DNA from: Alitta virens
Taxonomy: Eukaryota > Annelida > Polychaeta > Phyllodocida > Nereididae
Direction of reading: 5' to 3'
NCBI GenBank assembly: GCA_932294295.1
Contig: OW028584.1
Span: 4,287,907 to 4,351,906 of the forward strand
Length of the DNA stretch: 64,000 bases
Positions 13,397 to 64,000 of the stretch are shown here, piece by piece. The translations under genes were made by a program, and so were the position numbers. Each line of letters starts with the position of its first letter. Position 1 is the stretch's first letter. The notes under the pieces are model-generated. The model saw only the letters and a program-made list of their open reading frames with translations, searched no databases and was not told where the DNA came from.

Positions 13397-16300
13397 TCAA
13401 TCATCATCTCTAGTGCCAGCTAATGTGCATATTTGATCAAGTACACATATGATGGTGCTTTGTGATTGGTTGCAAATGACATAGCTGCCTCTTAAAATGA
13501 GAAGCCAATTAAGGCAGTCAGTAGTCTTGGTATTAGTTAAAGTATAAGTGCTGCCATCGCTAGGCAATGTTACATATGTTGGCAAACGCCTGTGGGATAA
13601 CTAATTAAATAAAAACTTATGTCGTTATTTTAAATTATCCATAACTTGATAATTCATAACATATCACTTACTTATCTTCATATAGATATAGGAGTGCATT
13701 AAAAACCACATAATCATATAACTATTGTATAATATAGTATTCAGGATTATTTCATCAGACATCACTCAGGAACCTTACCATAAATTCAGGGTCTTCTTTC
13801 GCAGACTTCTCAGTTGATCTGAAGTTCCATATGATTCAAGTGTCTGTCCAATGCAGTAATATTGCCACTTCTCGCTGAAAGAAAGAATACAGACAATTGG
13901 TTGTTTTTGCTTGTTTTTACTCTTCATGAGCTATATCCCAGCTGGATGTTGATCACTTGACATTAAATTGGAGGTGCCTTGTACTCTAGGTCTTTGCTGA
14001 GGCAAGTGAAAGATCCCACCCATTGGGAAAATGTGTGAAATGTTGTGGACTCCAAGCCTTATCATCTCATCATTATGTCTGCACCTGGCAACTCGTCACA
14101 TGACTTGAATAAGCTTAAGTAGCATTGATTTATTGAACATTTATACCAATTTATAAAGTATTTCATATGCTGAATTCTGGGGTGGTCTTACAGTTAAGTC
14201 TTTACTTAGTATTAAACTACAAAAGGATTTACTTTTAAATTTTTTTACCATAAAGTGCAAGGCTTCAGGTTGCAGTTGGTTCAACATTCCTTCGATGAAT
14301 GTGCCATCATCTGTTTGGAGAGTTTCCACTTTGTCTCGAATCACTTTCACATGAAAGGAAAACATAGGACAATTTTTTAAGGCAGAAAAACATTGATATT
14401 TACGAAATGAAAGGCAAATTATCTAAATTACAAGCTTCTATTGTTCAATATGTACCTAATAATTCTATCCCATATCACAATATGCTTACAGTTTCATCTT
14501 AAACTTAGTGGAATGGTATATAGTCGACCATCGTTAATCCGAACACCTTGGTCTCAAGCCATTCAACCGGATTAACGATGGATTTAGGTTACCGAATTTA
14601 GTGGCGCCCCTAGCGGCTGTTTTCGGAACTAACGATAGTGGCGACCTCTGGTGTTTTAATAGTCACTACCACGTGGGGTGGGAGGCCTGAGATTATCTAT
14701 CTATCTATTAAATCTATCTATATATCTACTATATATCTAATCCATCGATCTATCTATCTATCTATCTATCTATCTACTATCTATTTACTATCTATCTACT
14801 ATCTTTCTGTCAATCCATCTTAGATTAATAGGATGGATTTGAGTGTAATCGGTATAATTTGAAAGGAAAAAAAATGAAGAATTATAATAAAAATGGCAAT
14901 ATTATTTGTAAAATATGTGTGTAAAATATTTGAGCATTTATGGCTTTTAGTGATGTTGAAGGGCCCGAACTGATAAATTGGTTTTTTTGCAGAGGAAAAA
15001 TAAGGAATCACTCTATCTCTATCAGCTGCCAGAACTGTCTGAACACTACATCATCACTTCAATTTTTTATGCCAAATTGTGGACAATCTGAGCATAGTTG
15101 TGAGCTATTATAACCTCCTCAAATGTTAATATCTGTAAATTGAGTTGCAGACAACATTTTACTGCCATGCTTGATGGCGCTACACACAAACAAGTAGTTC
15201 CATGTTCACTAATTGTGATTTCATAAAATAAAAATTCATTGATATATATATATCAACATAATTATGTGCCATTCAAATCCATGAATGAAGAAATGAGCAT
15301 CTAAGGCAAGGCATTTTCATTGACGACCCAACAAGGTTATTGAGTGCGTATAGGAATTACACTGTGGTCCAAATTGGTCCAAATTAAGAAGAGCGGTTTC
15401 ACAACATAGGGAAATCCTGCCAAAACTTGTTTTAACTTGCGCTTTTGAAACAATATATATTGAAGAACAGCTATAAATGGCACACAGGCCTCTCAAAATG
15501 ATTTTTACAAATCGTCCATAAAGCCAATGATTGTTGGTCAAGTCGTCAACAGGCACAGTCGTCATCTGGTGAAGGCGTCCCCAAAAAAGTGAAGTCGTCC
15601 CTATTAGTTAGTAAACTCGTCAAAATTCCATAAATTCGTCACAATCAAACAAAGTGGTCAGCTTTCTTAGTTAAGTCGTCATCTAAGCTAGCAGAGTCGT
15701 AATCAAAGTTGGTAAACTCTTCAACAAACATGGTCATGTTGTCATCATTAATTAATGAGAAATTCTCTTTTATCTGACTCTCTATATCAGTTTGAATAGC
15801 AATTAGGGATAACCAATTATTGCGATCATACATGTATTGTAGTACCCCATGAGTGTACAACGAATACTAGTCAAAAAATCCTATGTCCGAAACCGAAACA
15901 TCCGAAAAACTCCAAACGTTTGAAAAATAACCGAAAAGTCTGATTGCATATTTAGATCGATATACAACATTACAGTTCAGATTTATCATAGATACTTATT
16001 GTTGCTTAAATGTTAAGTGCAATTGATTAATCAGTCAACTTGAGAGCAATGATAGCAATTGTAATGGATGATTACACCAGTGGTGTAGGCCTACGTCTCA
16101 TTGCAATTAATAATAATTATAAGACAGACCAATTAAAGAATATGTGTGAAGTGAAGTACAAAATAAATATATTATTATGCCACGGTTTTTTGATCTTATG
16201 TTTCTCGGAACTTTCTCGGACTGCTTTTCATGAGATGGTCGGTCGGAAAATAAAAAACAAATCCCGCAAACTTTTTTTTTTTCATAAATTTACACAGGTG

Positions 16301-24277: not shown

Positions 24278-27200
24278 TTACACAGGTTCTGCAGCCCTTG
24301 CAAGGTGAGCATCTGCACCCTTATGGAGGAATATCTCTTCAAGGTCTGAAAATGTCCTTTTCGTGCACGAGTCATTCTCCCATCTTATTCTTCCTGCTAA
24401 TATCCACCGTAGTGGAGTCATCAAATCTTTATCTCTGGCATTCACATTCTCAGTTGTAGTGAGATTCAGAAAGAGGGGCAATAGTTTGTCTGCTGCATCT
24501 GGATGTTCAGAAATGCCTTCTGATAGGATATGCAGAGGAGTCCTCCCATCACAGTCTATGGCATTCACATTCTCAATTGTAGTGAGATTAGGAAAGAGGG
24601 GCAATAGTTTGTCTGCTGCATCTTCATGTTCATAAATGCCTTTTGTTAGGATATGCAGAGGAGTCCTCCCATCACAGTCTATGGCATTCACATTCTCAGT
24701 TGTAGTGAGATTAGGAAAGAGGGGCAATAGTTTGTCTGCTGCATCTGAATGTTCAGAAATGCCTTTTGCTAGGATATGCAGAGGAGTCCTCCCATCACAG
24801 TCTATGGCATTCACATTCTCAGGTGTTGTGAGATTAGGAAAGAGGGGCAATAGTTTGTCTGCTGCATCTGGATGTTCAGAAATGCTTTTTGCTAGGATAT
24901 GCAGAGGAGTCCTCCCATCACAGTCTATGGCATTTACATTCTCAATTGTAGTGAGATTAGGAAAGAGGGGCAATAGTTTGTCTGCTGCATCTGAATGTTC
25001 AGAAATGCCTTTTGCTAGGATATGCAGAGGAGCCCTCCCGTGTTCATCAGTCACGTCAAGTAGGGTAGGCTTATACTCAATTACCATGGAAACAGTTCTG
25101 TGACATTGCTCAGAAAAGTCAGCTGGCACTTCTTCGGGGAAATATTTCCAATGGCAGCTGAGCAATGCATGCAACACAGTGCCGTGGGGTTCCCAGTGGT
25201 TGAGACATTTCTCAGTCAGCAATAATGGAAGGAAGTCCATCAATGCACTAGTTAGATGCTCTGTGTTTGCAATAAAAGGGAATATTCCCTGGAAAAAGTT
25301 GTGCAGAGTAGATTCAACTTGACCTTCTGGTATCCATGTTGGATCTGCCCCTTTATTAAGCAGCAATTTCAAAATATCGATCAGTTGGTGAGTCCATTGG
25401 AATGTCCACTCGTCCACTTCAAATATATACCTTGCATTCATAATGAGATGGCCAATACACTCTGTCCTGAATGTAAATAATTTTTGCTATTATCATGAAA
25501 AATAACAGATATTTAACTCTGAGCATGCAATGTTATTACATGTGACACCATCTATAGCTGTAGCAAATACACGAATGCTGAAAATTGTGGATATAAACTG
25601 ACTGAAATTATTGCAAGTATGGATTGATAATTTATTAAATGTCAACCATTTAATCAAATTGTTGACTGGGTTTGATATATTTCTTTTAAATTAATTGGAC
25701 TCATTCTGTTTTCATTGCAAAGAAATGGGATGTGCAGATAGTTGCAATAGTCCTAAAATAAATTTTAATAGTTTTGTGTGTAGCTATCTTCCAAAGAGAG
25801 TCAAAATCAAAACCAGATAAGGAGCAAAAACCAACATAGATTTGATTATAATTCAAGGTAATGCATGGCCATGGTGTATAATATATATTTTTACAGCATC
25901 ACAAGAAAGACATGTTAATAAAATAGCAGATAGTTTTGATAAGCTGATACATGACTATTGAGAAGAAGTATATTTTACAGATGAGAGGCCTATTTTGCAC
26001 CGAAAGTATAAATTTTGGCCAAATATTTTAAAATTTGAAATTTAGGTTCATCAAGAAAGAATGGCACTGAACAATGTTTGAATTTATTCTCTCTGGAAAA
26101 TTAACGTTTGCAAAAGTGAATTAATCAAATCATAGGAAAACCACAACCATCATAGGCACACAGATGAGTTACCTTATTGAAACGGATGCATCTGTTGTCA
26201 TCAATATCTGTAAAATAAATCAATTTATTTTTTTATTTTTTTTATTTTTATCTATTTTTTTCATAACCATTTCATAACTAAGTAAAAAGCAGAAGATAGT
26301 ATAAACCTGGAACACTTCTTATATATTTCCTTCATTACATTACATTAGATGTGCTGCAGAAATTCATCAGGAGCCAAATCATGAATAATTTACTTTTTGC
26401 ATAACCGAGAAAGCACCCCAAAAACCCATCATTTTTATCAGTAAAATTTCCAAAAAATAAAAGCACAAGTATCTGTTTGAATTTTTTTAAGTTTGTAGAA
26501 TGCAAATTTATAATGCACTCTCTACACAGTCATGTCTTGCTTTAATGGACTTCATTTTTTATGCGAACAGCTATTTTTGTCTCACTATGCAAACTGTGTG
26601 GGACACATAAGCCTATTTTGTCTATGTTATACTGCTGCATATGAGCAAAAGCCTTGGGAGCTTAGGTGTTTGGTATAGCCTGTAGAAAAATGTAATATTT
26701 TTTTTGTGTTTACCTTGAGTATTGCCATGAATTCTTCTTGATGCTTTGCAAATACTTTTAAACTCTCTACATCCCTCATTTGCTGCACTAAGTGAGTAAA
26801 AGGCCCATCATGTGCTGTGTGTGAAATTGTGTTGTATACATCTGACATAACCTGCAAATGACAAAATGAAAAATTATTAATATTTATACGGAAAATATAG
26901 AAATATGTAGATATGTAAATTGATTGATTGTTTTATTGAATAAAGCTACTCTACCCAAAGGCTAATGACATGCTGCTTTAGGTTACAAATGTAATGTAAT
27001 AAAAGGAAATTTGTGTAAGTGTAGAAGATAATGATAAGCAACTGTGATGTTTAGGCCTATTAAATTTACATGAGTAACAATTTGGCATATTGCATTCTTC
27101 AATATAAGCCTCAACTGTCTTCTTTTTCACATATAATTTAAAACCGTGGAAGCTATCGGTGTTTTTTTTTTTTCTTTAAAAATACTTGGCATATTGTTTA

Positions 27201-34304: not shown

Positions 34305-35455
34305 ATATATATATATATAGATTTTATTGACATGTAAAATATCATAAATGATACATATGTCATTCAGTTAAAAGATAACATGAAAGAGACATTAATGTAA
34401 GTACAGAAAGCAATAAAATTTCAATAATCAAGGTTCCAGCCACCAAGTTAACTTATAATACGTGTTTAAAATCCACATACACAATAGAAAAAAATACAAG
34501 CCGCTAATAAAAACATTTCACTCTCAAAGTCCAAAACATGACAAGCACATCATAACTAATAAACTAATAAACTAAATTAATAACTGTGTGGATACAGGAG
34601 ATGGTTTTCTCTACACATCAGCTTGAAGGAGAAACTTTCCTAAACTAATTAATAACTCAGGTTCCTTGTTTGTCATTATTGCTGTAAACTTAGTTATATC
34701 ATCTAGAGACAAGAAGTTGTTAATAAATTTAGTTGCATTCAAAAAAAGGTTAACACGGTGTTGCTCATTACCAGGACAGACAATCAAACAGTGAATTTCG
34801 TCTTCTACAAAGTTTAACGTACACTTTTCACATATTCTATTTGGAGCAGGAATTATTGGTTTATGGTGTCGACCTGTTTCAATCTTCAGGCTATGTGAAC
34901 TTGTCCTAAATCTAGCTATTTTAGTTAACACTTTGCGAATTTGTTGCAATTCAAGATAAGGTTCTATTCTACAATCAGTTTTAAATAGTTTATATGTCCT
35001 AAGTTTTGGTTGTTGTGAACTGTCATTTATTGCATTTATAAGTCGCTCATGTTCGGCTTCATAGAGTCTTAGTTTCACTGTGTTAGAGATATTATCAATG
35101 TCAAAGTTTCTGAGGTTACTAATATCATATTCAATGTTGCAGTTATTTAATACATGACACACTTTACTGAACCAGTTATTTCCATTTACTGCATTCACAT
35201 AAATTTCCTTCTGAAAATTTAAACATTTCTTAAGTAAACTGTCATCAGGTGCTCTTTCCAATCTTATCCAGTAATTCACCATTCTAATTTTCTGTCTGAC
35301 ATGCAATGGGAATCTACCTGTTTCACCATAGACTGCTAAAGATGGTGTTTGTTTTCTAACTCCTAATATGTTTTTAAGATATGCAAGTTGCAAATTTTCT
35401 AATTCAGGCATAGATTTTTCACTTGTCCATATTTCACTATTGTACTCCAGGATAG
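34305..35455 (-). mobile_element. non-LTR retrotransposon C-terminal fragment with 266-codon ORF
   Basis: The open frame 35411-34611 follows in-frame EYNSEIWTSEKS, the usual (Y/N)(G/S)xEIW motif after a LINE reverse transcriptase. It contains NLQLAYLKNILGVRK, AVYGETGRFPL and, near the C-terminus, a zinc-knuckle-like ICEKC...DEIHCLIVC. AATAAA (reverse TTTATT at ~34324) and a TA-rich tail mark the 3' end at ~34305. The left break falls in a TATA/TTTA microsatellite. The ORF is intact over 266 codons, so this copy is younger than its neighbours. Confidence 0.75.
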
Positions 35456-35525
35456 GTATATATATATATATTTATTTATTTATCTATATTATTTATTTAT
35501 TTATCTATTTATCTATCTGTCTATT
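35456..35525 (+). repeat. TA/TTTA/ATCT microsatellite
   Basis: Tandem TA, then TTTA, then ATCT units; abuts the truncated end of the LINE. Confidence 0.85.
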
Positions 35526-42310: not shown

Positions 42311-42419
42311 TCATTGGATATTGGATATTGGACATTCGTTGAATATTCAACGAACAGTAAAGTTCATTTGATATTGAAGATTCGTTGAATATTCAATGAA
42401 CAGTAAAGTTCATTGAATA

Positions 42420-43067
42420 TTCAATGATTGAATATTCGCCAGGGGGGCAAGGGAGAAGGGTCAGTGCCTGGGGAAAAGGGTCACCGCGGCCTCCCAATGG
42501 CCTAACTATAACCCCCCCCCCGGCCCCCTTAACCGAATATCAAATGAATGTCAAATGGTTGAAGATTCGCCAGGGGGGCTAGTGAGAAGGGTCGGTGCCT
42601 GGGGGAGAGGGTCACCTTGGCCCCCCAATGGCCTAACTATCATCCTCTGCCCCTCTTGACCGAATATCAAATGAATGTCAAACGGTTGAAGATTCGCCAG
42701 GGGGGCAAGGGAGAAGGGTCTGTGCCTGGGGAAGAGGGTCACCGTGGCCCCCCAATGGCCTAAGTATCATCCCTCTGCCCCCCTTGACTTAATATCAAAG
42801 GAATGTCAAATGGTTGAAGATTCGCCAGGGGGGCAAGTGAAAAGGGTCGGTGCCTGGGGAAGAGGTCACTGCGGCCCCCCAATGGCCAAAATATTATCCC
42901 CCTGCCCCCCTTGACCGAATATCACATGAATGTCAAATGGTTCAAGATTCACCAGGGGGGCAAGGGAGAAGAGGTGGTGTCTAGGGGAGAGGGTCACCGC
43001 AGCCCCCCAATGGCATAAAGAATCATCTTTCATTTGATATTGGAGATTCGTTGAATATTCAACGTAC
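42420..43067 (+). repeat. ~128-bp tandem array, about five copies
   Basis: C(G/A)CCAGGGGGGC recurs at 42438, 42568, 42695, 42823 and 42950 (spacing 127-130). Units are G/C-skewed (GGGGGG then CCCCCCAATGGCC). The array is bracketed on both sides by AT-rich DNA with the palindrome CGTTGAATATTCAACG (about 42331-42346 and 43049-43064). Confidence 0.85.
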
Positions 43068-44456
43068 ATCATACTTAATATATAGGCCCAAATGGATTAC
43101 ACAAGGTCCAGATGGGGGATAGGCCAGGCCTAGATGGGTGATAGGTCTGTCTCGGACATCATACTTAATATATAGGCCCAAATGGATTACACAACAGGTA
43201 TGTATGGGTGGTAGTAATTTAGGTCCAGATAGGGGATAGGCCAGGCCTAGATGGGTGATAGGTCTGTCTCGGACATCATACTTAATATATAGGCCCAAAT
43301 GGGTAACACAAGGCGTATGGATGAGTGGTACATACTCCCAGTATGTATCATCTCCTGCTAACATAGGTCCAGATAGGCTATATAGGTCTAGATAGGTGAT
43401 AGATTGGTGTCGGGCATTGACTCCTGCTAACATGAGTCCAGATAGGGGATGGGACAGGTGTAGATAGGTGATAGGTCTGTCTCTGACATCATACTTAATA
43501 TATAGGCCCAAATAGGTGACACAAGGGGTATGGATGGGTGGTAAATACAACTAGTATATCACTCCTGCTAACCTAGGTCCAGATAGGTGATGGGACAGGC
43601 CTAGATAGGTGATAGATCTGTCTCGGACATAATACTTAATAAATAGGCATGGATGGGTGATACTAGGGGTATGCATTGGTGGTTTATTCTCCTAGTTTAT
43701 CACTCATGCTAATCTAGGTCCAGATAGGGGATAGGACAGGCCTAGATAGGTGATAGATCTGTCTCGGACATAATACTTAATACATAGGCATGAATGGGTG
43801 ATACTAGGGGTATGGATGGGTGGTAGATACTCCTAGTATATAATTCCTGCTAACCTAGGTCCTGATAGGTGATGGGATAGGCCTAGATAGTTGATAGATC
43901 GGTCTCGGACATCATACTTAATAAATAGTCCCAGATGGGTGATACTAGGGGTATGGATGGGTGGTAGATACTCCTAGTATATCACTCCTGCTAACCTCGG
44001 TCCAGATAGGTGATGGGACAGGCCTAGATAAGTGATAGATCTGTCTCGGACATCATACTTAACATATAGGCCAGGATGGGTGACACTATGGGGATGACTG
44101 GCTAGTAGATACTCACTCCTGGTAATATGGGGCCAGATAGGGGATAGGACGGGCCTAGATAGGTGATAGATCTTTCTGGAGATCATACCTTGTATATAGG
44201 TCCAGATGGGTGACACAAGCAGTATGGATGGGTGGTAGATACCCCTAGTATATCACTCCTGCTAACATAGGTCCAGATAGGGGATAGTACAGGCCTAGAT
44301 GGGTGATAGATCATACTCGGACTTCATACTTAATATATAGGCCAAGATAGGTGACACTAGGGGGATAAATGGCTGGTAGATACTGCTAGTATATCACTCC
44401 TGCTAATGTTTGTCCAGATAGGGGATAGGACAGGCCTGGATGGGTGAAACATATTC
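43068..44456 (-). repeat. ~140-bp satellite array, first orientation
   Basis: About ten units, each with CTGTCTCGGACATCATACTT, AATATATAGGCC, GGTGACAC, GGATGGGTGGTAGATA and CCTGCTAAC, AGATAGGGGATAGGACAGGCCT words. Late units are spaced 132-143 bp. The minus-strand ORFs through it (IKYDVRDRPITHLGL) are repeat artefacts. Confidence 0.85.
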
Positions 44457-44580
44457 ATAGTTTGTGGCTTTATGAGCTACATCCCTGCTGGTTGTCGATT
44501 ACATGAGACATTAAATTAAAGGTGCTTTAATTGTGTTCTGTGTCTATGCTTAGGCGAGTAAAAGACCCCATACCCCTTGT
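44457..44580 (+). mobile_element. SINE family A, copy 3, at the satellite inversion point
   Basis: TTTATGAGCTACATCCCTGC, ATTACATGAGACATTAAATT, GTCTATGCTTAGGCGAGTAA, AAGACCCCA match the SINE A body. The SINE sequence ends exactly where the satellite resumes in the opposite orientation. Confidence 0.7.
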
Positions 44581-45960
44581 ATCATCCATCTGTGCCAATA
44601 TATTAAGTATGATGTCTGAGACAGACCTATCACCCATCTAGGCCTTTCCCATCCCCTATCTGGACCTAAGTTACTACCACCCATCCATACTGCTTGTGTC
44701 ACCCATTTGGGCCTATATATTAAGTATGATGTCCGAGACAGACCTATCTCCCATCTAGGCCTGTCCCATCCCCTATCTGGACCTAAGTTACTACCACCCA
44801 TCCATACCCCTTGTGTCACCCATTTATGGCCTATATATTAAGTATGATGTCCGAGACAGACCTATCACCCATCTAGGCCTGTCCCATCCCCTATCTGGAC
44901 CTAGCTAGGTTAGCAGGAATGATATACTATAGGAGTATCTACCACCCCTTGTGTCACCCATTTGGGCGTATATATTAAATATGATGTCCAAGACAGACCT
45001 ATCACCCATCTAGGCCTGTCCCATCCCCTATCTGGACCTAGCTAGGTTAGCAGGAATGATATACTATAGGAGTATCTACCACCCCTTGTGTCACCCATTT
45101 GGGCGTATATATTAAGTATGATGTCCGAGACAGACCTATCACCCATCTAGGCCTGGCCTATCCCCTATCTGGACCTAAGTTACTACCACCCATCCATACT
45201 GCTTGTGTCACCCATTTGGGCCTATATATTAAGTATGATGTCCGAGACAGATCTATCACCCATCTAGGCCTGTCCCATCCCCTATCTGGACCTTGGTTAG
45301 CAGGGATATACTATAGGAGTATCTACCACACATCCATACCCATTTGGGCCTATATATAAAGTATGATGTCCAAGACAGACCTATCACCCATCTAAGCCTG
45401 TCCCATCCCCTATCTGGACCTAAGTTACTACCACCCATCCATACCCTTGTGTAATCCATTTGGGCCTATATATTAAGTATGATGTCCGAGACAAACCTAT
45501 CACCCATCTAGGCCTGTCCGCTCCCCTATCTGGACCTAAGTTAGCAGGAGTGATATACTATAGGAGTATCTATGTGGGCGTATATATTAAGCATGATGTC
45601 CGAGACAGATCTACACCCATCTGGGACTGTCCTATCCCCTTTTTGGACCTAGGTTAGCAGGAGTGATATACTAGGAGTATCTACCACCCATGCATGCCAC
45701 TTGTGTCACCCATATGGGCCTATATTGGCATATATAGTATAATTTCCTGTCTGAATAAGCTAGATATATCCCCATCTAGGCCTATAATATCCCCTATCTG
45801 GACCTTTGTTCACGTAAGTCTAAAAATATCTACATACTTGTCATGCATCCATACAACTTATCTGGGTCTAGATATTATGATTATCTGAGATAGATCTGTC
45901 ATCCATCTAATTATGATCTGTGCCCGTAATATTCCCTATCTTGATGTTTCATTGTTTCAC
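44581..45960 (+). repeat. ~120-140-bp satellite array, inverted orientation
   Basis: The same monomer as 43068-44456 but reverse-complemented: TTAAGTATGATGTCCGAGAC recurs near 44601, 44721, 44841, 45113, 45231 and 45475. Monomers are 113-137 bp, slightly shorter and more uniform than in the left array; they decay toward 45960. Confidence 0.85.
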
Positions 45961-48031: not shown

Positions 48032-48306
48032 TCCTAGCCTCACTGTGCGTGTGGGCGATAGTGTATATTTATAGAGGATAAGAAACAACATTCAAATCAT
48101 CGCTGGCTAACAAGTGCTTACCCCATGCAATGAAGACTATCTTTGACACATATGTCCGTATGATTTCAATAAAGTTTTTACAGTGAAAGAACTGCTGTCC
48201 AATGCGTTATATTTGCAAAAACAGACAATTTGTTCATTGTATACAAATGATCAATCCTTAGCGAACGTTGTCTCGCACATAACGCCTTCGTGCATTCTGA
48301 TTGGTC
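48032..48306 (+). repeat. left inverted repeat of composite element
   Basis: Contains the 18-mer TATAGAGGATAAGAAACA (48070-48087), the block beginning TTGTATACAAATGATCAATC (48238-48277) and a CCAAT-type box. The middle (~48120-48237) is poorly conserved with the right side. Confidence 0.6.
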
Positions 48307-48703
48307 AATCAATTTTTTTTAGTATTTGGTGTAAAAAATCATTGTAAAAGAAATCAAACACTGGTTGTTGTTTATATTAAAAGATAAAAAACATTTGTGC
48401 TGGTCGTGATTTTATAATTTAGTTTTTGCAAGTTTTAATAAAATATTTAAATGAGGTCACGTGACAACTGTCAAAACAACAATCAGCTGATCGACACCAG
48501 CTGGGATGGCGGAGTCACAACTTAAACAGTATCCTGGCAGGACATCACTGCTTAATTCAAGGATCGGTAAGTGTATGAAAATGTACATATGTTATGATTG
48601 AATTGTACAGTCCTATCCATAAAATTAAATAAAAATTTATAAATAAATAAAAATTTATGACAATTGTCAAGTCCAAGTCAAATGTAAACAAAACGGGGTC
48701 TGG

Positions 48704-49022
48704 TCAAAACGGCCAAATACAAAACGGCCAAAGGATAAAACGGCCACCTACCAAAACGGCCAATTGTACTATTTGAAGCTTTATATGCTTTCTCATCCAT
48801 CTATCTTATTCTGTACTATATATACATCTAGCCTATATGAATTACTTAATTGTATATATTTCATTAAATTATTAATATTTCGTTGTTGTTGTTTCTAAAA
48901 ATAATCCAACTGGGATTAAAATTGCATGTTCCATATGCTTTCTCATACATCTATCTTATTCTAACCTGTATATACATCAAGCCTATATGAATTAATTGTT
49001 ATGGTCGTTGGCCGTTTTGACT
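48704..49022. mobile_element. nested MITE with iterated AAAACGGCCA ends
   Basis: TCAAAACGGCCAA and three further ACGGCCA copies at the left are mirrored by TTGGCCGTTTTGA at 49009-49021. Two ~65-bp direct repeats (48787-48855, 48936-49000; TATGCTTTCTCAT, CATCTATCTTATTCT) fill the interior. It interrupts the 5' part of the helicase gene. Confidence 0.6.
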
Positions 49023-51267
49023 CTACTCCAACAAAACTATACATTGGTCAACATACATCGGGAGGTATATTTATGACATATTAAAATATGGACATATGTT
49101 TAAGTTTAAACAGAACTGCAGATCAGGGCTAAAATTTGACATTGAACAATATCTGAGGCGGATGCAAAATTGGTGAAAGGGGGGGGGGGGCGTGGATAAT
49201 TTATTTGCTATTGCCTTTTTTTTTTTACCTTTTTTTTCACAAACATAATGATGTTTATGATCATGGTTGCTACCTGCAATTAATACCATTTAGTCTGTAC
49301 AAAATAGTTCAATTCAATTTTTTTTTGCATGTCTAGACTGCTACATGTGCTGTCCATGGCAGGCAGATATGTGTCAATGTCTTTATCTAACTATAACTAA
49401 ATTTTAAAAAATCATTACATGTCAAAAGAAATTAATTTAATAAGAAAATGAACATGTTAATGATAAATTTGATCATAAAATCCATTTTTCATGATTAGAA
49501 GTTGTTTAACATATCACAATTTGACAAAGCAAAATGTATGACACAGAACATAAAATATTATTGTTAAACATCACAATACTAAGTATACCAAAATATTCAC
49601 ATAAAGAAGGTATTTTAACTGCATTATTATTTCACAGACCATTCTTTTTTGGATAGATATTATTTTTATTGTTGCATTTTAATCATTATTACAGGCTGGC
49701 ACAGGGAAAACCACTATTATTAAAAGTGTAGTTGATCACATGAAATCATCAGGTAAAAAAATTCTAGTGTGCGCTACAACAGGGATAGCAGCCCTTCAAA
49801 TTGGTGGCAAAACCGTGCATACTACATTTGCATTAGGTATGTATGTTCCTAAATTAAACGCAAAAATTTTGTACAAAAATGCTATTGATAGTTTTTTAGT
49901 GAAAAATACAACTGCGCATTGTATTTGTTAAAATTTATTGTAAAATTACTTATTATTATATGTAATATATGATCAATATTTCGGGGATGGTAATGGGTTT
50001 ATACAAATGTAAGAGGGAAAAATTAAAAATATGTATGTATATGTAATTATGTATGGTTTACACTGAATAAGGTTAGGTGAATATTTTAGGTGATGGATTA
50101 AGGTCTGCAGAGGACATAATGGGAAACATGCCTGAAAGTGTGGCCAATGATCTGGTCACAGCAGAAGCTGTGATCATTGAAGAATACAGTATGATGTCCG
50201 CATATCTCATTTGCAAGGTAATTAACTATATTGCATTATATTTCTCTTTGCACATATATGCAATAAAAGTTTTTAATATTTCATAACATACGTTTTATTC
50301 ACTGAATAGCAATATGTTATATTTGATTCCTTCCCATACAGATTGAAAAACTTCTGAGAAAAATCAAAAATAATGAGTCTGTATTTGGAGGAGTACAAAT
50401 GGTAAGTGCAATCAAGTATGTCTAAAGAAAGTGTCAAAAGTAAAATTGATTTAAATTTACACACTCCAGTTAAACCTAATAAACTCAGTTAATTTAATTT
50501 TCTCCCGTTGTAGATCATGGTTGGGGATATCCTTCAAGTAAGTTTACTAAAATTATAATTCTTAACTGTTCGCATAAAATTAACTGTAAAATAATAAAAC
50601 TTAATAATCGTGTGGTTCAGGGCAATGAACCTCATGAGTGATGAGGTTCTGGCAAATTAATTCATTGAGGAATTAATATTAAACTACAATTTAACTTCCC
50701 CGCCGGTAGTAACATACAGTTCTTTTTAACAGCTCCCACCAGTGGCCAATGGGGATGATAACGGTGAACTATGCATCTCATCTCCAGTCATTAGGTCATT
50801 TCATGTGTTTCATCTTCATCAAGTTCACCGTTTTACTTGCAACCGACTCCAGAAAGGTATGTATTGTGATCAAGAGCCAAAATGTTACAAAAATTCATGT
50901 AATTATTGTTATGTGCCACTGAAGAGTAGCTAAAAGCATGGTAGATATTTGAAAAATTTCATATTCATAATATGCGTTATTATTTTCAGTATGTACTACA
51001 TAATACATTGTGTTTGGCCTCTAAATTTTATTTTGATACATATATTGACAGCTGTGCAAGAAACAGCCTTGGGCCATGTTTCTAAGGAAACGGAAAATTT
51101 TATCGGATGTCTGGGCAGGCGGGTGGAGGGAGGCATATGTGTATTTGCAACACAATATGAAGTGCGCATTCATAACTGCAGGGAATTAAAGGTAATTAGC
51201 CTGAAATTTATGGTGCATGTTAGGAGAGATAATATATGAATTAAAGAAAAAATATAAATATGCTACA

Positions 51268-51490
51268 TGGTAGTTAGGTGGTCTAGTGGTAAGGAAACTG
51301 GCTTGTTCTTCTGGGGGTCCCAGGCACTCTTTATGAGCAGCAAAGTCCCAGCTGCATGTCGCTGGGATTAGTTAATTTGCAGTCCCTTGTAGTTGATGTC
51401 TATGTTAGGGCAAGTACGAGATCCAACACAGGGGGTAAATGTGTTACCTGGTGTGGACTCCAAGCCTAACCATCTTATTAACATCTCACA
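51268..51490 (+). mobile_element. SINE family A, copy 4 (with tRNA-like head)
   Basis: The head GGTGGTCTAGTGGTAAGGAA has an A-box like many Glu-tRNA-derived SINEs; a degenerate B box (GGGTCCCAGGCAC) follows, then the family body ending TGTGGACTCCAAGCCTAAC. It lies within a helicase intron (51192-51617), so it inserted into the composite element. Confidence 0.7.
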
Positions 51491-54400
51491 TTATTAACTT
51501 AAATTTACTATTACATAACACTAGTTTGCGCGACCCAGTGTCATTCAATTTCATGTATAGACATGTAACCAAGCATAACAATTTATAGAAAACTTACTTT
51601 GTGTATTATATTTCTAGCAACTACAAGGACAATCATATACCTTTGAGGCCATCGACAAGGGTGTTCCAATTCCTAAGATGGAGAATCGTGTGCCAAAAGT
51701 AAGCATTACATTCAAGAATAATATTTTAACGCCGATATGCCAGTATGCACTCAGCAGTTTTGTAACATTTTTGCTTTTGAGTATGAATGATATTTTTAGC
51801 TATTAGTATTATAGCAATCACTTAAACAACTTATACTAATTAAATAACTTTGAAACATTGTGAAAAAAGAGTCCAAGTTGTTTCATTATAACTATCTTAA
51901 CAGGAATATATTTCTTAACACATAAAATGTTAATAAATAATAACAAAAAAAAGAATTAATCTATTTTCCTAATGCATGAAATGTTACTGCAGGTACTACA
52001 TTTGAAAATTGGGGCACCAATAATCTTCACCAAAAATATTGATGAGAACCTTGTCAATGGGCAACTTGGAATTGTGAAAGAAATATCAACTAATAAAATC
52101 GGAGTGCAGTTGAAGACAACAAAGAGAGAGGTTGATATAGCAAGAACTACATTTCGAGAGTGAGTAAAAGTCACTTTATCTCAATACTTGCTCACAATAT
52201 AATATATACATTTTTTATTTATGAGAGATAACCATTAGTTATGACATTAAGCAATAAATGGAGACATGCACTTAGTTGAAACTTTTACTAATCAGCTGTT
52301 ATTTGATACTAAGTAACAATTACTAATGACAGTCAGAGCTGGGCAAGTACTGAATTACTAGTATAAGTATGAGCACAAGTACCGAGTAAACGTACAGCAT
52401 ATAAATGATGAATAAACTGTCCCCTATGCAAATGTTTTTTAGCAATACTGCCACTCAACTTTTCTGGTGACCACAAGTTTAAAAACAATTGTCCAAGTCC
52501 CATAAAGTACAAGTATTATACTTCTTGAAACCTAAAAGTAACAGTATGCCAAACTTTACTGGAGTACCAACGAGTATGCATACTTTGGCCCCAGCTCTGA
52601 TTACAATTATATACTTCTTGTTGAGAGATTAAAGAATTGCATGCAATGAGCCAAAACTGTTTACTAACAACCATACCTGTTTAATACTAATTAGTAATCA
52701 CTATTAACTTAATATTTCAAACACAGGTCTAGAGTTGACAAGTCAGTAATGGAGCGCCTACAATTTCCCCTGCAACTAGCATATGCGCTAACAATTCATA
52801 AAGTTCAGGGTCTTACATTAGAAAAGCTAACTGTGGACGCCAAGTGTATTTTTCAATCTGGGCAATTGAGTGTTGCGCTATCTAGAGTGCGAGATCCGGA
52901 AAATTTGGCTGTTATAAATTTTTCAAAGTATCGGTGCCTAGAACAGCCACAAATTGTTCAACAATTCCTCAGCGAACCCCAATTACAAGTAGTTCATGAT
53001 TTGTCTTGCTGCCGAAAGAAATTGGATTTGCCACAATGTTATACACTGGAAGGATGTGAAAGCGAAGAGGATGATGATGACTCAGACTTTGAAAATGATG
53101 AATCAATGGAAGAAATTAATGCAATTATGGAAGACATTGAAAGCAAACACCTTGAGGAAATAAGAAGTTCTCTCAGCTTTATTGAAGAAGTGGACACTTT
53201 GAAATGTCGTTTGAATACAGATGAAATCACTACGATCCTGAAAGACCTTTACTCATCACACAAATCTTGCAAATCACTTTTGATGGAGAAAATTCACCAA
53301 TCGCCTAATGATTTGATCAGTAAAACTGAAAACTGTATGGATTTCACAGTGTACACATGGAACATCTGTGCTCAGCTGTGAGAAAAATTTTGCAAGTGTG
53401 ATTACTCCCAGATTGACACGATTAATGCAACCAAACAACGTCTTTTCACAGGAAAATGGAGACAATATACCAATTCCAAACATTTCATTTCTGCCACCAA
53501 ATCACTATTTTCAACAACCAATCCATCCCAAGCAGAGTTGACAATTGCCAGATCATTTGCTGAAGAAATTAAGAAAATTGTCATTAATCAAGTGTTGAAT
53601 GAAGTGAAATCAAATTTCCAAATTCCTTGTGATTCAATTAAACCAATCACATCTGCAGGAGAATCAATGATAAGGAAATTAGGTGGACGTGCAATTTCTA
53701 AATCAAGAAAGAAGCTCTTCACCAAATCCAAATCAACACTAAAGAAAGGAAATGTCGACGAATCAACAGATGTATCAATCAACCTATTGAGATCAATGGA
53801 AGCAAATTACAATGAATTAATGGAAACATCAAATCAGATTCCAAGTTTAAGAGCCACTGAACGATCACAAGGCCCCAGTCGAGGATTAACCCACATCACG
53901 TACAAAGCTTTCAATTTTTTTTTGAAAATTGAAGAAAAACGCCGTAATTTCCAATCATACCAGAATCTATCGAAATATAAAAGCCAAATTCTCATCGAAA
54001 CAAACAATCACATAATAGACAATGACAAACTGATTGTTTACTGGAACTCAATAGTCGTATCTCCTGAATCATTCCAATCACCTGAAATTAACTTCAATGA
54101 AATCAAACATAATTTGTACAGAATGATCATCAACTCCTTCCTCAGAGTTTCCAATAGTGGCTATCGCAAATACCTACGAGACAAAATTTACAATAGAGAA
54201 AAACAACATGCGCACCGAATCAACATTTTAACTGATCCATCAGCAACAAATCCTGAAGTACCAAGAACTTCTTCCACAACAACCAATAATCAGCCCAATC
54301 CAAGGGACATCACCGCCTCCTCATCATCATCATCATCACCAGCATCACCAATGGACATTGATCTGTCCCCAGAACCGTCAATGGACACTGACCCCTCTCT

Positions 54401-55350
54401 GGTACCATCAGCACCATCAGGGCATGCCCCTTCTTCAAAGGAAATAATTTTCAATAAACCAAGACGGCGCATAATACTACCGGCAAGGTTTTGCTGTGGC
54501 GCCACTGACAATGAACTAAAAGAATACGAATAAATGCTAGGGTAAAGACCAGGCTATATTCACTAATTTATAATATTTTTAAGTTATAGAACCCGCCTGT
54601 TGATGTTTGGTTTATTTTGTATTCAATCAAGAAAAAAATTGAGTATTCACAGATTAAACGTTGGTTGAATGTTCTTATTACTTTATGTTCTCACATACTG
54701 ACTCAAATCAATATTTTTTGGAAATAGATCAAAATAATTTATTAACACCAGACACCAGTAAACTTTCAAAGTATGTACATATGAGTAAAAATCATAAATA
54801 TCACAACATTAATAATTGTTTCAAAATTTATGAAAGAATACATGTCACTTCAAATTTAAAACAACTATAATTAACCATAACATCGTACAGTTATGAAAAA
54901 ACATCAAGTGTTACAATTTGTTAGTTACTACAGATGTAAAAGGAAAACAAAATCGTACATATATGTAATTGATACTATTTTATTTATACTTGCAGGGATG
55001 GCCTACATGGTAATGTATTTTATACATTTTACCAATTTATACATTTGAGTTATATTATGTAATGTAAATAATGAGTGAAAATAAAACTATTTTTGATACA
55101 ATTTTGTCTTTTTATTTGGAGAGTCTATTGTCAGACATACCAAACTGTTATATCTGCAGAATAACTATCATAACTGCATAGCTTATAATTTATTATTCCA
55201 TTATTTTTTACATTGTGGAATTTTGTCGTTTTTTACCTATATTGAAAAAGTATACTTTTTAGAGTGCTTACACAACAGTCAGTAGACCTACTTGTCATAG
55301 GCTAATAATACAGTGCTGTTTTGTCATAATTTTTATTTATTTAAGTTCAG

Positions 55351-58300
55351 TTATTTACTGGTTAATGTACGATTAGGATTTAAAGGCCCCGGGACAGCAA
55401 ACTTGAAAAGCATTGCAGACAAGGAATTGCTTCCTGCATTGCTGTTTTTTTTTACTAATCCTGCTGAGAGGAGAACGGTATTTAGTGAATATTGGTACTG
55501 CAAATATGTAGGGTTATTATTAGCACCATTGTGTACAGATCTCACCTGACAGAAAATATTTTCAACACAATCTGAATTGATGTATACTGGCTTGATGGAG
55601 TGCCCTGGGAAAGATTGGTTTCTTATTTCCACTAGCTGCTTGATACCCACTACAGCTGACTCCAAATCCTCCCGACATTCCCAGCTAAGTAGAGAACGAT
55701 ACTTCTCCTTTTTTTGTCAGGCTTTCGTCACTGTTGACTTCAGTCTCCCACTGTTGGAACCACTCCAAAGCATATTCTGCATTTTTCATTAGCGGGTCAA
55801 CTGTACTGCTGATAGGTCTTGCAGATTGATATAGTTCACAGAGGCTTGCTGTATGTTGCAACAGTGTCACAGTCATGTTGAGGTGCTCCCCATTTTCCAA
55901 ATAGCATTGGTATTCCTGAAACAGAGTGATGTTTTATGATTTATAGGAATTTCACTTTTATTCGCTCATTACTTTCCTTTAACAATTATTATGCAGAAAA
56001 TAATACGCCCATGGACATGCTTGAGATGAAGGGCTCTCTTGGATAGTGCTTATTCGCATTGACACATATATTCTGGTAATTATATATTGGTCAATAATTG
56101 TATGTTACACGCTAGTTGGTACACTAATTGAGCCCAATCGATAAAACTGCTCACAATAATATCCATTACATCTCTTTCTTCAAAATTATTACCTTCATAA
56201 GATTCCACATGTTGCTATTCAGTGCTTCAAATGCAAAGCTGTTCCTCATTTTGGAAGCCTTATTGACATCAACGGCTGATTCAGTGAGTTTATGGTGAAG
56301 TCGGTGGCCTGAAATTGTTCATTTAAAGTTATGAATTTTATACATTGAAAATTATTATTTCTATACACGTACATTGAAACAATTAGACAATAGCTGTGTG
56401 TTATTGTGCATATATCCTGTTATTGCAATTTTGATATAGCTAAGGTCTCTACTGACAAAGCTGTCTACCGATAAATGAAAAAAAAAAAAAAATTTATTTT
56501 TCATTAATGTATATCAGTAATGGGCTTGATCATGCCTAAATTTGTTAAAAACTCATCAAGGTTTATAGTTACCCATATTATATTCTGAATCCCATGATTC
56601 GGCATCCTGCTATTGGTGCCAAAATACATATTCCCCTTTCAATTGTAAAAATCGAGTTCCTTCTCCACTGGACTGACTTTTTAATAGGCTATTGCGTATT
56701 TTTTTAATTAGATGCTGAAAATGGAAAGGAGATACATTTTTACAGTTACAAAGAAACTTTTCCCCGACTTTAAACATCATAATTAACATGCATTTTAGAT
56801 GAGAAAAAACCATAGAATTTTGATAGTTTTATATGGATCTCACCGATGGATCACTGATGAATACCCTTCTGTGACCATTAATTATCGGGTCTGGAATCGT
56901 GAATTTGTTATTCCTAGGATGGCCTTCGAAGTACAGTTTCACTAAGGCAAGATTGTTGCAGGCCCCATCCATTAATATTGCATCGACCTGCAATTCATTA
57001 CACAAAAGAAACATTATCAATTAGAAAAAAAAATAATGCAATTTAAACAGCTAGATCAAAAGGTTTCTTATCTTAATTATTTTAGGCCAAAAAGGCAATA
57101 CAAGTCTGACTTTCTCTGTATACTCCTTTTCAAGAGCATGGACTTTATTTAAATAATTGGTGTGGGATATAACAAATGATATATATTCAAGGACACTCAA
57201 TACTTTTAATTATCTTACCACAAAGTCATATAGTTGTAACGTTGCCAACACCTCTTCCAGGTATGAGTCCAGCTCAGCAGCCGATGCCTCATTTGTTGGC
57301 CAATGGGCTACAGGAAACCTGAAGCCTGTATGACCAACAAATACAAACTGCAGCACAAATTGTGCCATTTGTGGCAGTACTAGACCTGTAAATTTGTGAA
57401 GTACCAATATATCATCTTCAAATAATAATTTACATATGAATTAATGTACACGGATGTTGTTCAATGTACAATGTTTCTCAAATTTCTTTTAAAATATAGA
57501 TTTCGTTGTATTATTCCAGTGAAACAACAACACTGATTGTGTATCTAATACAAACAATATATTTCAATAATGACTATAAATAATATGATGCACTCAATTA
57601 CCTGTTTTTAAGTACTGAAGGTCATCACAATACGATCCGGCTTCGATGAATCCCACTAGCCTAAAATTCTGACCCTCAGGCTGCATCATGATGTCATTCT
57701 GAATAAGTAAATATTCTACATGAGTGTGAATATAAGGTATATTTAATTAGGGAACATAAGTTATATTTATTTATGCAATTAAACAGGAATGCAATTAGCC
57801 TTTATTTTTTAACCTGTATTTTCATTTCATCCAGTGCCAAACAGCCAGAACGACCTGCTGTTGCTATTTTTTTGGCCTCCGCTTCATTAGCCATCCATAA
57901 AAATAAATCTGGATTGATTCTGGGGGTCTGATGTATGGAATTTTTGTAGTATTGCAACAGGCGACCTGATGGTAGTACAAGGAAGTCTTGTTTGGCCATG
58001 CTGCTGTAACATGCTGGGCTTGTTGCCCAGTAATGAAGGCAATACTGAATGAAGCTGAAAAAATAATAATTTCAATTTCTGCAACTAAAATTTTCAATAT
58101 TTTCTGTAAAATCATCTCTTATCACGTAATTCAGGATGCATGTGATCTTCTATTGGGTGCTTATGTTAGCTGATCTTCAGATGCTATGATGCTGTTTAAA
58201 GAATAAATATATAGGCAATGGTGGAAGTTGATGAGGAGGCCATCATAGAGTTATGTGGGACAAGGAAAAATTATATTGGATGCGGACGACTCAATTCATA

Positions 58301-60094
58301 CACTATTGATATAATATTTAATGCAGCATACCTCAAAGGCCAGCGGCGTCTGCGTGTTTCTTTCTTTAAATGATTAGTCATCTGTATTTTCATGAAATCA
58401 ACCATATTATTTTCTTTAAATTTAGGATTCTCTTTTAATTGGGTAAGGATGTCAAATAGGTCTCGGTGATCTTCTGGAATAATTTCTATGGAATCATCTT
58501 CATCTTCTTGATCATCAATCATGTCATCATCATCATCAACTTCTTCAACCTTTGCATCCCTCTGCCTGTTCCACATACAAAATATTATAAAAGAAACACA
58601 TAATGAAATAGTGTTCTCAAACTTGAGCTAGAATTTAGAAAGGGGACGGCGAAATGGAAGACCATTACCACAACAATATATTATTTATAGTTTCACATCT
58701 TTTCGGATAACTAGGCAATTTGCAATTTCTCATGTTTGAAATTTATTAATTACCTTTTGACAAACATTTTTGGCATAACAGGCCACACAGCAATTTCTTG
58801 ACCTTGTTCTATATGCTCCTTTCATCTCTCCCCCTGCAACAGACTCCCAAAATTCGGCTCCATCCCTCTTCTCACTGGCATATCCCTCACACATCTTCAT
58901 GTCCATCACTTGCTTTACCAACACCTTCCATGACGATATCTCATCCCTGCATATCTTCCTTGGTATCTCATCAGATACAGGCAACAGTCTTCCATCAAAC
59001 TTTATCAAAACAACCCCTTCTCATCTACCTCAACCTCTTAACAAACTCTCTTTCCATTGACAATTATTTCAGTTGGTAAACATGCATTGACACAAGAGTT
59101 CTTATCTCCCAATAAAGTGAAACCAGCTTCCTTCAGTATTTGTTCATAATTGTCTGACACTTCAACACTGTATTTTCTGCACAAGTTGACATAGCTGGTT
59201 GACAGCTTTTGCCAATTATCTTTAGATCTACTTCGTTTAGTATCAACCGTGGGGAATTGAAACTTCATTAATTTTGTTAAAACACGGGGCTGTATCGCAC
59301 ATCCTAAATTATCCTCAATGCATCTGATGATCTCTGGTTGTTCAACCACTTCACCATCCTTGCACTGGTAGGATTCAAACAACCTGCAAGAATAATAATT
59401 ATTATTTCAATTATTTGACAATACTCAAGAGTTTATTCAATACACAATGCACCTGTTTTACTCAAGGCAGTATCACACTTGGAACATAGGCATCCTCACC
59501 CCAGCTTTTGAGATAGAGGAATACTGCCCCCCCCCCCCCGAGCTCATTCATAGGCTGTATGACAACCCCCCCCCCCCCCCCCCCCCAATTGTCATAGTAC
59601 TGAGGGTATGCTGCTGCCCAAACTAAATTATTAGCTACAAATATCCTACAGATGGCATGAGTAATGACGTAATAACCTATTAATTTAAATACCAGTTATG
59701 ACAACAACTAAAATTCAACCTTATAACAGACTGGTGTCTCGATCATTCTCTCTTTTTAAAAGATTATTTAAGTATCATAAATATAACAGCACCATACCCA
59801 AATTGCCTTTATGTGCTCAATACATATATATGTCCTTCAATAAAACAGCTTAATTGCATTTTTGATTGACACCTTCATGTCCGATGTCATGTCCACTTGA
59901 ACATCTACTTTGTGACATAATTGCTATTAAAACCCTTAAGGTCGTAGGATGACTCAATGCAATTGATCGCTGACAATAGAAATATATCATGTATTGTATT
60001 ATACTCACCATTTTCTAATTGTGTGGGTGTCACCTGGCTTCATCTTGAAAATGAAGATCAAAACAACCGCGAAAACGAGCACTTGTTTACGCAT
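55351..60094 (-). pseudogene. P-element-superfamily transposase (RFX-like N-terminus), disrupted
   Basis: Ten phase-matched exons: 60043 (or 60094)-60009, 59383-58754, 58561-58332, 58054-57814, 57698-57602, 57385-57219, 56987-56844, 56714-56573, 56308-56193, 55915-55351. Exon 2 begins WLFESYQCKDGEVV and has LTKLMKFQFPTVDTKRSR, resembling an RFX winged helix; no THAP C2CH is present. Exon 3 is acidic. Then come P-type landmarks: SPACYSSM...LVLPSGRLLQYY, catalytic-type Asp in LALDEMKIQ, FVFVGHTGFRFPVAHWPTNE, second Asp in ILMDGACNN, ISDPSHLIKKIRN (split by an intron), HHKL...SKMRNSFA, and the acidic SDCVENIFCQVR with NNNPTYLQY. Lesions: TAA (59040-59038), TAG (56612-56610) and a frameshift at A7 (T7 on plus, 55709-55715). 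Splice sites are intact. Confidence 0.85.
59526..59587. repeat. poly-C runs
   Basis: Two long C homopolymers (~14 and ~22) in the first intron of the transposase gene; likely length-unstable. Confidence 0.85.
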
Positions 60095-60115
60095 GGCGTC
60101 ACCATAGAAACGCCT

Positions 60116-60427
60116 AACCAATCATATTTCAGCTAGATCGTCAGTGCGGGATGACGTTTGCTAAACATTGATCTTTGTAAACAAGAGTTCAGTAAGAGCT
60201 TTAATCTTCATTTATGCTAGATTTATGAGGAAATCTAACTTGAACACACGTGTGTATGATGAGAAATATTGTACAGTGTAAGGAAAGTTTGGCAGCTTAT
60301 ATGTCACAGACTTTATTCATACAAAAAAACAACTCAGAAGCACGAGAAGTCTAGCCTACTCCAGGTCACCTGTTTCTTATCCTCTATATAATATAGTCTA
60401 AATAGCACACTATAGTGAGACTAGGGT
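60116..60427 (-). repeat. right inverted repeat of composite element
   Basis: Mirror of the left repeat: ACCAATCA, then GTGCGGGATGACGTTTGC... (60144-60184), then TGTTTCTTATCCTCTATA (60371-60388) and AGTGAGACTAGG (60414-60425). Confidence 0.6.
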
Positions 60428-60540
60428 CCGTGACTAGATGTCGGACTTCATCATTCACAGTGTCATCAGTGCTGCTGTCTGCATAGTTATCACAAGAGGA
60501 TGGATACGCTATCTAGCCTGTGACTAGCAGTGTAGCACAT

Positions 60541-61204: not shown

Positions 61205-61515
61205 GTCATTGGCATTGGGGCTGTTATAGTGACACTTATAAGGTATCAATAGAAACTCTTTTTGGAACCATGGTAATTGAGTTGTACCTTAAAGCTCCAG
61301 TGATCATGTAGACAACATAATTGATATTTGAACATTTCATTAACCCACAAATTCACTGAAATTCAGTCACACCTGAGTGACTATCAAATGGACTTGACAT
61401 TTCCTACCCAGGAAGTCTTCAACAGCTTTCACACCTTCAGCATCGGTGTTAATTTGTGTGAACAGCAACTCAACTGCCAACTTTTATTGACAAATGATCA
61501 CAACATTGCTATTGT

Positions 61516-64000
61516 ATGATGAATATGAATAGCATGACATCTGAGCTTCATGGGCTGCATGATCCTAATCCTGCAGATGCGCTTCCAAACATGCATGGAA
61601 CTGATCAAGCCCAGGTGGAGAATTCACACACTTCAATAACTACAGTGGAGCATCTTACGGAGAACAATCTGCACTCATCATATGTCCCAACGAATACAAC
61701 TGTTGATAGAGACTCACCAGTTCCTTACATTCAGAGATATGGAACACTACATCAAGATTCTTCACAAGTATCCAAAGAGACTAGTAATGTTGCAAATACT
61801 AGCACAAGAGAAAGAACTCTAACAGAAAAGGGCTTGGCCTACATGATAGACACTGCAACCAATCAACTCAAATCAGCTTTGGTAGGTCACAGGCAGATTT
61901 GTTTTAAATTTGAAAATCTAACTTTAAGTAGAGATCTCAAAATTACAGAACTTAGTGAATTTCTTGACATGCTTGAAAGGTCAATGTTTAATGTTTCAGA
62001 AAAGTATCACAAGTTGGGCAATATGTCAATTGAAGCATATGATGAGTATACACAAAGGTTTGAAGACTATCCCAATTTAAATCAAAAGGTTATGCTTACA
62101 ATCTCTCAAGCTATTAGGAAAATTGAACATAATGAAACAGGAAGTATTGTTTCAAAGCACAGTCATAAAAGCAAATCTTCAAAAGGTTCAACTGGTCACA
62201 GTAGTAGGTCCTCAAAGAGTAGTACTTCAAGGTATGTGCGTTCTCATAGCTCACTTTCTTCCATGAAACTTGCAGCTGCACCTAAAGCTATTGATTTAAA
62301 AACACAACTTAAATATCTTGAACAACAGAATCTGGCTCAGTCTGAATTGCAAAAGATTGATATGTTTTGCAAAATTGAAGCAGAAGAAGCAAAACTTAAA
62401 ATTGCTCAAGATATTGAACTTGAATCAGTGCATTCTGTACAGAGTATGGGTAGTGATGTACATCAGATAAGCAATGGCATGATTGAAGATACCAGCAAAA
62501 GAAGGGTTCTTACTAGTGCTACTGTAAATATACTTGTACTGAAGCATGATGCATGAGTTGTCAATGATGAACCTAAAAGCTGTAAGAAGGATAAATTAAA
62601 TTCCCGAGCTCCTGAGTTCATCCCAAAATCTGTTGGTACTGAGTTAATTTCAATGCAGTCTGCTGATCCAGACTGTGCCTAGGAGTTGATTCCAGCTATG
62701 GAACAAGAACAACCTGCTGTGTCAAGTAACCTGAATTATGTGCAGCCAAGTAATAATGTGAATTCACAGATGTGCGACTTAGTTAGATCGTTCAGCGAAT
62801 TTGTAATATTAGCCGACTTCCAGTTCCTGAGCTGGGGATATTCTCTGGAGATCCATTAACATATCCTGAAAAGAGCATTTGTAACTCTAATAGACAGTCG
62901 AAATATTCCTGCAGCTGACAAGGTATATTATCTACAAAGGTATCTTGGGAGTACAGTTCAAAAATGTGTACAAGGTTATCTTCTGATGCCAACATCAGAT
63001 TCCTACAGTGAAGCAACTAGACTCATTGAAAGACGGTATGGTGACCCATTTATAATAGCACAAGCTTTCAAATCCAAAATTGAAGCTTGGCCTAAAGTAC
63101 CTTCTCGTGATTCTGAAGCTTTACGCCAATTTAGTGACTTCCTCTGTCAGTGTGAAGTTGCTGCTCGGGCCAATCAGAGTCTCAGAGTTCTCGATGATGA
63201 TATGCAGAACAAAATGATGTTATCAAAATTACCTGATTGGTTGGTAACAAGATGGGGCAGAAAGGTTCATGAGAATTACAGAGCAACTGGTATTTATCCT
63301 CCATTTAAAGTGTTCGTCAAATTTCTTGTGGAAGAAGCTGACATAGCATGTAACCCAGTCACTTCAGTAATTCCTAGTAAACAAGCTGGGGTTAGTCCGC
63401 AGGCAGGAGTCAAAACTCAAGGTAACAATAATGTAGCCATAGGGAGAACATTGAATACTGCAGGGTTAGTCAGGTGTTTCTATTGTGATAAAACAAACCA
63501 TTACATGGATAAATGTTTTGCATTCTCGTCGCTTTCTGTTGATGACCGAAAGAGATTCATCAATGAAAATCGACTTTGTTTTGGTTGTCTCCAATCGGGA
63601 CATATTGCAAGTAATTGTAAGTACAGAGCTCAATGTGATAAATGTTCCAAGCGTCATCCAACGTCTCTTCACAGGGACATGAGTGAACAAGCACCTGAGA
63701 GTAATAGTCAAAGGTCCAGTTTTAATGGTAACATGATTCACAAGGACACAGGTGAAACGAGTTATGGTCCTAATGGTCAAAAGGGTTTATCTGTGTCTGA
63801 AGTGAAGAAAAATGGGCCATCATATGGTAATGGTGCAATTGCAAAAGGTTCAATATCACATTTTGCGTGCAAAGGTAGTTCGAGCAAAAGCACGATGATC
63901 TTGCCTGTTTATGTGTCTCATGAGCAAAATCAAGGTAAAGAAGTCCTAGCTTATGCTTTGTTGGACACTCAGTCAGATACCACATTTGTAAAAGAAAGTC
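61516..64000 (+). pseudogene. BEL/Pao LTR retrotransposon gag-protease region, decayed and cut by window end
   Basis: A 346-codon frame (61516-62556) has a Ser/His/Lys-rich region and a coiled segment near its end, as in BEL/Pao Gag N-termini. The same frame then meets stops at 62554 and 62689. After frameshifts near 62790 and 62865 come a DUF1759-like Gag domain (LPVPELGIFSGDP; QRYLGSTVQKCVQGYL; RRYGDP), two Cys-rich knuckles (CFYCDKTNHYMDKC and CFGCLQSGHIASNC) and the start of a retropepsin-like aspartic protease (ALLDTQSDTTF). Reverse transcriptase and integrase would lie beyond 64000. Several stops and frameshifts make this copy non-autonomous. Confidence 0.8.

Follow-up and report, generated by a model that had tools for sequence, protein, structure and literature searches.

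A probable two-gene transposon of the P superfamily with a PIF1-family helicase in the polychaete Alitta virens

We analyzed a 64-kb stretch of contig OW028584.1 from Alitta virens (hereafter the window, to which all positions refer), focusing on the segment from 48033 to 60425. With a probability of about 0.7, this segment is a single old transposon of the P superfamily, of the cut-and-paste type, with two genes and now broken. Between imperfect terminal inverted repeats it carries the two convergent multi-exon genes that an earlier note on this DNA had described. The helicase gene has nine exons on the + strand, and the transposase gene eleven segments on the − strand. Our analysis adds three points to that note: the transposase has an RFX-type domain, the helicase has a C-terminal extension, and both genes have decayed.

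The transposase and helicase genes

The exon structure of the transposase gene was modelled by eye, giving eleven coding segments that run from 60043 to 55354. A predicted first exon (60009–60043; MKPGDTHTIRK) is followed by the exon with most of the RFX-type N-terminal domain (59041–59383), a coding segment past a frame break (58754–59014), and an exon with an acidic linker region (58332–58561). The presumed first catalytic D (ALDEM) is in the exon at 57814–58054. After two further exons (57602–57698 and 57219–57385), the presumed second catalytic D (MDGACNN) is found at 56844–56987. Next come an exon with an in-frame TAG (56573–56714), another exon (56193–56308), and the last exon (55354–55915; also supported by Pfam), which contains the presumed catalytic E (SDCVENIF) and an internal frame break. 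The damage to the gene in this copy consists of two frame breaks and the in-frame TAG.

Pfam identified TNP-like RNaseH_N in the model (E 1.3e-9), in agreement with the P-superfamily assignment of the earlier note. The RNase H C domain fell just short of the cut-off in the model (E 1.1e-4) but passed it when the last reading frame was scanned by itself (1.1e-5). The protein is homologous to P transposase, with a DDE RNase H core in which ALDEM, MDGACNN and CVENIF are kept; the terminal and subterminal inverted repeats characteristic of the superfamily are both present. Relatives of the transposase were found in the pearl oyster Pinctada imbricata, the mussel Mytilus galloprovincialis, the coral Oculina patagonica and the hemichordate Ptychodera flava. 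Pfam listed TNP-like_GBD for 6 of 23 relatives (E up to 0.05), and not for the window model.

The N-terminus of this transposase family is an RFX-type winged helix, as indicated by sequence profiles and fold comparison. With a limit of E 0.05, Pfam found RFX in two of the 23 relatives, P0001 being the only one above the cut-off. A THAP domain was listed neither for the window N-terminus (E up to 1) nor for the 23 relatives (E up to 0.05), several of which lack the N-terminus. A more distant P-type protein, P0023, has an N-terminal part that is RFX-like by eye, together with zinc-finger-like stretches.

The helicase gene spans 49695–54533, encodes 890 residues, and has eight introns that are all GT-AG and in phase. 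The first recognisable exon (49695–49836) contains the Walker A motif (AGTGKT), and the second (50090–50217) the Walker B region (IIEEYSMM), in which the acidic pair is EE, in contrast to DE in solved PIF1 according to the PDB alignment. Five exons (50342–50401, 50514–50537, 50733–50856, 51052–51191 and 51618–51698) precede the one with the Pif1 2B domain region (51993–52159; also recognized by Pfam). The last exon (52727–54533) contains what we take to be motifs V and VI and then the C-terminal extension. An in-frame TGA in this exon (53379–53381) interrupts the gene in this copy and looks like damage. An ATG at 48506 was considered as the helicase start and rejected, being out of phase on splicing.

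The earlier note had called this protein a PIF1 helicase, and Pfam bears this out: it has a PIF1 helicase domain (E 5.4e-28) with a 2B domain (Pif1_2B, E 3.9e-8). PIF1-like helicases are also carried by Helitrons (excerpts of PMC8504770), so that the gene could have been supplied by a Helitron or Helentron remnant. We regard this as very improbable. The PDB bit scores were 161 and 153 against PIF1 chains, which we presume to be those of yeast and human PIF1, and 83 against Helraiser. Cellular PIF1 thus gives the better score and the sole solved Helitron protein the poorer one, so that a Helitron source is not indicated. Moreover, the element ends are inverted repeats, and scans of the gene models and of six out of nine reading frames found no Rep domain. 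Stop-free stretches on the + strand ahead of the Walker A exon reach 83 residues at most.

Past the helicase core, Pfam gave no convincing match. The C-terminal extension is nevertheless common to P0145, with 234 of 579 columns identical, colinear across the TGA. P0042, which came from the helicase relative search and was absent from the extension search itself, aligns with 25% identity from the Walker A motif as far as residue 725 of the 890 in the helicase. Since the extension is present in both P0145 and P0042, the helicase is a member of a family characterised by a C-terminal region of its own. The helicase relative search scored the 8000 candidates with most shared words, long Helitron proteins falling outside its length limits; the extension search also scored only 8000 candidates, with a query that had low-complexity stretches, so that further relatives of the extension may have been missed. 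A structure prediction for the extension had a mean pLDDT of 37 and was not used. A tree was built from 61 sequences, namely the window copy and the first 60 of 120 matches listed. The window copy sits there on a long branch and has no supported partner; its joining with P0042 is to be read with caution as possible long-branch joining.

Ends of the element and its probable unity

The left terminal inverted repeat (CCTAG...ATAGAGGATAAGAAACA; 48033–48087, + strand) pairs with the right one (60371–60425, − strand), with 44 of 56 columns identical by BLASTN. Further inside, a subterminal pair (48237–48305, + strand, and 60117–60184, − strand) lies in mirrored order relative to the outer repeats, and the spacing between terminal and subterminal repeats differs slightly between the left and right sides. 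An initial scan with 12-base seeds did not show the inverted repeats; local alignment recovers both pairs, with scores of 50 for the outer and 44 for the subterminal pair. The earlier note had described three mirrored inverted-repeat blocks. Two of these are probably the halves of the outer repeat, each well conserved, and the third the subterminal block.

There is very little chance that these repeats are fortuitous and simply flank two genes of another kind, for instance domesticated ones. The outer score was indeed equalled or exceeded by 3 of 2936 random 500-base segment pairs from the window, and the subterminal score by 4 of 2972 random 200-base pairs. The top scores among these random pairs, 330 and 198, suggest that they include genuine repeats elsewhere in the 64 kb. 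When the arms were shuffled preserving dinucleotides, none of 1000 shuffles reached 50, and none of 1000 reached 44; the two repeat blocks are colinear, and both genes are broken.

A single two-gene element is favoured because both genes lie inside one inverted-repeat pair and fill most of the space between its ends. The helicase is placed on the left side, with the left end on one flank and the transposase on the other, and the convergent layout uses both ends. The alternative is that two unrelated mobile units are involved, a helicase-bearing unit having landed in or beside a P-type transposon, with the ends being accidental or belonging only to the P-type part. This seems unlikely to us, given the arrangement just described. 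Apart from an AT-rich inverted pair (48640–48663 and about 55321–55343) that flanks the helicase part, the intervals tested showed nothing like the ends of a second unit, and the transposase part alone had no boundaries above chance there; neither was a second transposase or a Rep domain detected in the scanned frames and models. In favour of two units, an AT-rich pair of this kind might be expected if the helicase part were a unit by itself, although we judged this one to be low-complexity; 2 of 400 random pairs scored as high. Further insertions are seen within the element, a target duplication is not, and the P element review describes, in the excerpts available, a transposase gene, the one helicase it mentions being supplied by the host (PMC7776569).

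Several observations, the AT-rich pair among them, weigh against a single P-type element with its own helicase and an RFX-type transposase. The terminal repeats are only about 79% alike. A target duplication left no trace at the ends of this one decayed copy when lengths of 3 to 10 were tried, so that the 8-bp duplication anticipated by the earlier note was not seen; its proposal of a single element is supported in part, by the convergent genes within one inverted-repeat pair. The start of the helicase is missing, with no exon recognised upstream of the Walker A exon. A single copy was analysed, the transposase relatives came as protein sequences with no view of the adjoining genes, and no relative was seen carrying both transposase and helicase. 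Finally, the window N-terminus alone is weak for RFX: the Pfam match (E 0.012) is below the cut-off, and comparison with the PDB gave no matches. In the fold comparison of the N-terminal domain, Foldseek gave E 0.065 for RFX1 (1dp7) and 0.10 for RFX5. A second structure aligner gave a stronger match to RFX1 and RFX5 than Foldseek, with its own caution that regions outside residues 339–829 were barely tested.

The candidates for a target duplication were 3-mers, the repeat's own CTAG, and one mismatched 6-mer at shifted limits, all judged to be chance. The target preference of Drosophila P is GTCCGGAC; the right outer flank (60426–60433) reads GTCCGTGA, which is near it, and the left flank is unlike it.

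A third possibility is that a P-type element acquired the helicase gene as a one-off passenger, without using it. Only one locus is at hand, and the neighbours of the related transposases were not seen, as this would allow; we consider it improbable all the same, as the extension shared with P0145 and P0042 sets the helicase apart from plain PIF1, as a family of its own. In tblastn searches with 26 relatives (P0001–P0024, P0042 and P0145), no match was found in the window outside the element at E 1e-3. No relatives were confirmed in viral contigs or in bacterial and archaeal contigs; since the contigs searched came from viruses, bacteria and archaea, this says little about animal genomes.

The element also contains sequence that does not belong to its two genes. 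Near the 5' part of the helicase, an insert-like repeat (approximately 48702–49022, delimited by eye), with inverted ends around GTCAAAACGGCCAA and an internal pair of 65-nt direct repeats, is probably a later nested insertion. A helicase intron contains an interspersed repeat (51326–51478), approximately 72% identical in alignment to 13919–14070; ARAGORN called no tRNA gene in either, and Rfam and tRNA scans of the whole window found nothing. Elsewhere in the window, a large minisatellite block (42320–45685) comprises many arrays with units of about 116–141 nt. Ankyrin-repeat reading frames are found at 24278–25486 (−) and at 1004–2476 (−); the former overlaps a tandem array whose 123-nt units show 94% matches. 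Two long reading frames resemble, by eye, a retrotransposon polymerase tail (34611–35471, −) and a gag-like protein (61498–62556, +), with no Pfam match at E 0.01.

Proposed mechanism

If the segment is one element, the RFX-type domain would bind the terminal or subterminal repeats, replacing the THAP domain through which P transposase binds its internal sites, and the DDE core would pair and cut the element ends and then join them to the target. The cuts of P transposase leave 17-nucleotide 3' extensions, and either homologous recombination or end joining mends the P donor break, a process in which the host homologue of Bloom's helicase takes part (excerpts of PMC7776569). Because a host helicase takes part in that repair, the earlier note's proposal that the helicase here serves repair of the excised element could reasonably be entertained by analogy (PMC7776569, in the same excerpts). 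At the donor break, the element's own PIF1 protein would drive repair synthesis over long distances, so that the 12-kb element is copied back whole. The analogy behind this role is with yeast Pif1, which acts in break-induced replication. Granted one element with both genes, we see such a role as possible, with the odds leaning against it.

More broadly, and a little short of even odds, we tentatively propose an undescribed branch of the P superfamily, with the pearl-oyster, mussel, coral and hemichordate transposases among its members, in which ends are recognised by an RFX-type domain. In some of its elements at least, the second gene would encode a functional, dedicated PIF1 helicase that has a C-terminal region of its own. 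Animal transcription factors and these transposases would then have RFX folds of common descent, and one of the two may have given rise to the other. If this were true, a cut-and-paste transposon would encode part of a repair or copying step that is usually the host's, and the need of large elements for a helicase of their own would become testable. The RFX-type N-terminus also suggests that the DNA-binding front end is swappable among P transposases, and raises the question of whether RFX transcription factors and these transposases have a common source. A shared source was noted earlier for THAP-domain genes and P transposase (excerpts of PMC7776569).

Comparison with known systems

The element resembles Drosophila P and zebrafish Pdre2, as described in the excerpts available, in its transposase core and fold, with aligned DDE motifs, and in having terminal and subterminal inverted repeats (PMC7776569, PMC10983969). 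It differs in size (12.4 kb, versus 2.9 kb given for the P element in those excerpts), in having a second gene, and in its N-terminus, which is RFX-type instead of THAP; the N-terminal THAP domain of canonical THAP-type P elements and THAP9 was not listed by Pfam here. No 8-bp duplication was seen, and Pfam did not recognise the GTP-binding insertion in this copy.

Other DNA transposons that also encode a helicase are AcademH and KolobokH, for which Kojima 2020 is reportedly the reference. They are named for the Academ and Kolobok transposase groups, and the transposase here matches P transposase. In the excerpts available, DEAD and Helicase_C domains are tied to AcademH/KolobokH, and PIF1 is listed jointly for AcademH, KolobokH or Helitron (PMC10799480); the helicase here is of the PIF1 family according to Pfam. 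Since AcademH/KolobokH are named beside Helitron as transposon sources of helicases, the principle is already known (PMC10799480). Searches of the open-licence literature showed us no description of a helicase in a P-type element, of a P transposase with an RFX-type front, or of a P-type core that combines PIF1 with such a front, which is weak evidence of absence. In the pearl-oyster genome, PIF1-like helicase and transposon domains are enriched in non-syntenic regions, and the excerpts available do not join them into one element (PMC9646362).

With Helitrons and Helentrons the element shares a PIF1-superfamily helicase, which scores nearer to cellular PIF1 than to the Helitron protein; it differs from them in its inverted repeats and DDE transposase, and no Rep (HUH) domain was present in the frames and models scanned. 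With RFX1, RFX5 and ARID2 the transposase family shares, by sequence profile and fold, an N-terminal winged helix, in contrast fused here to a transposase.
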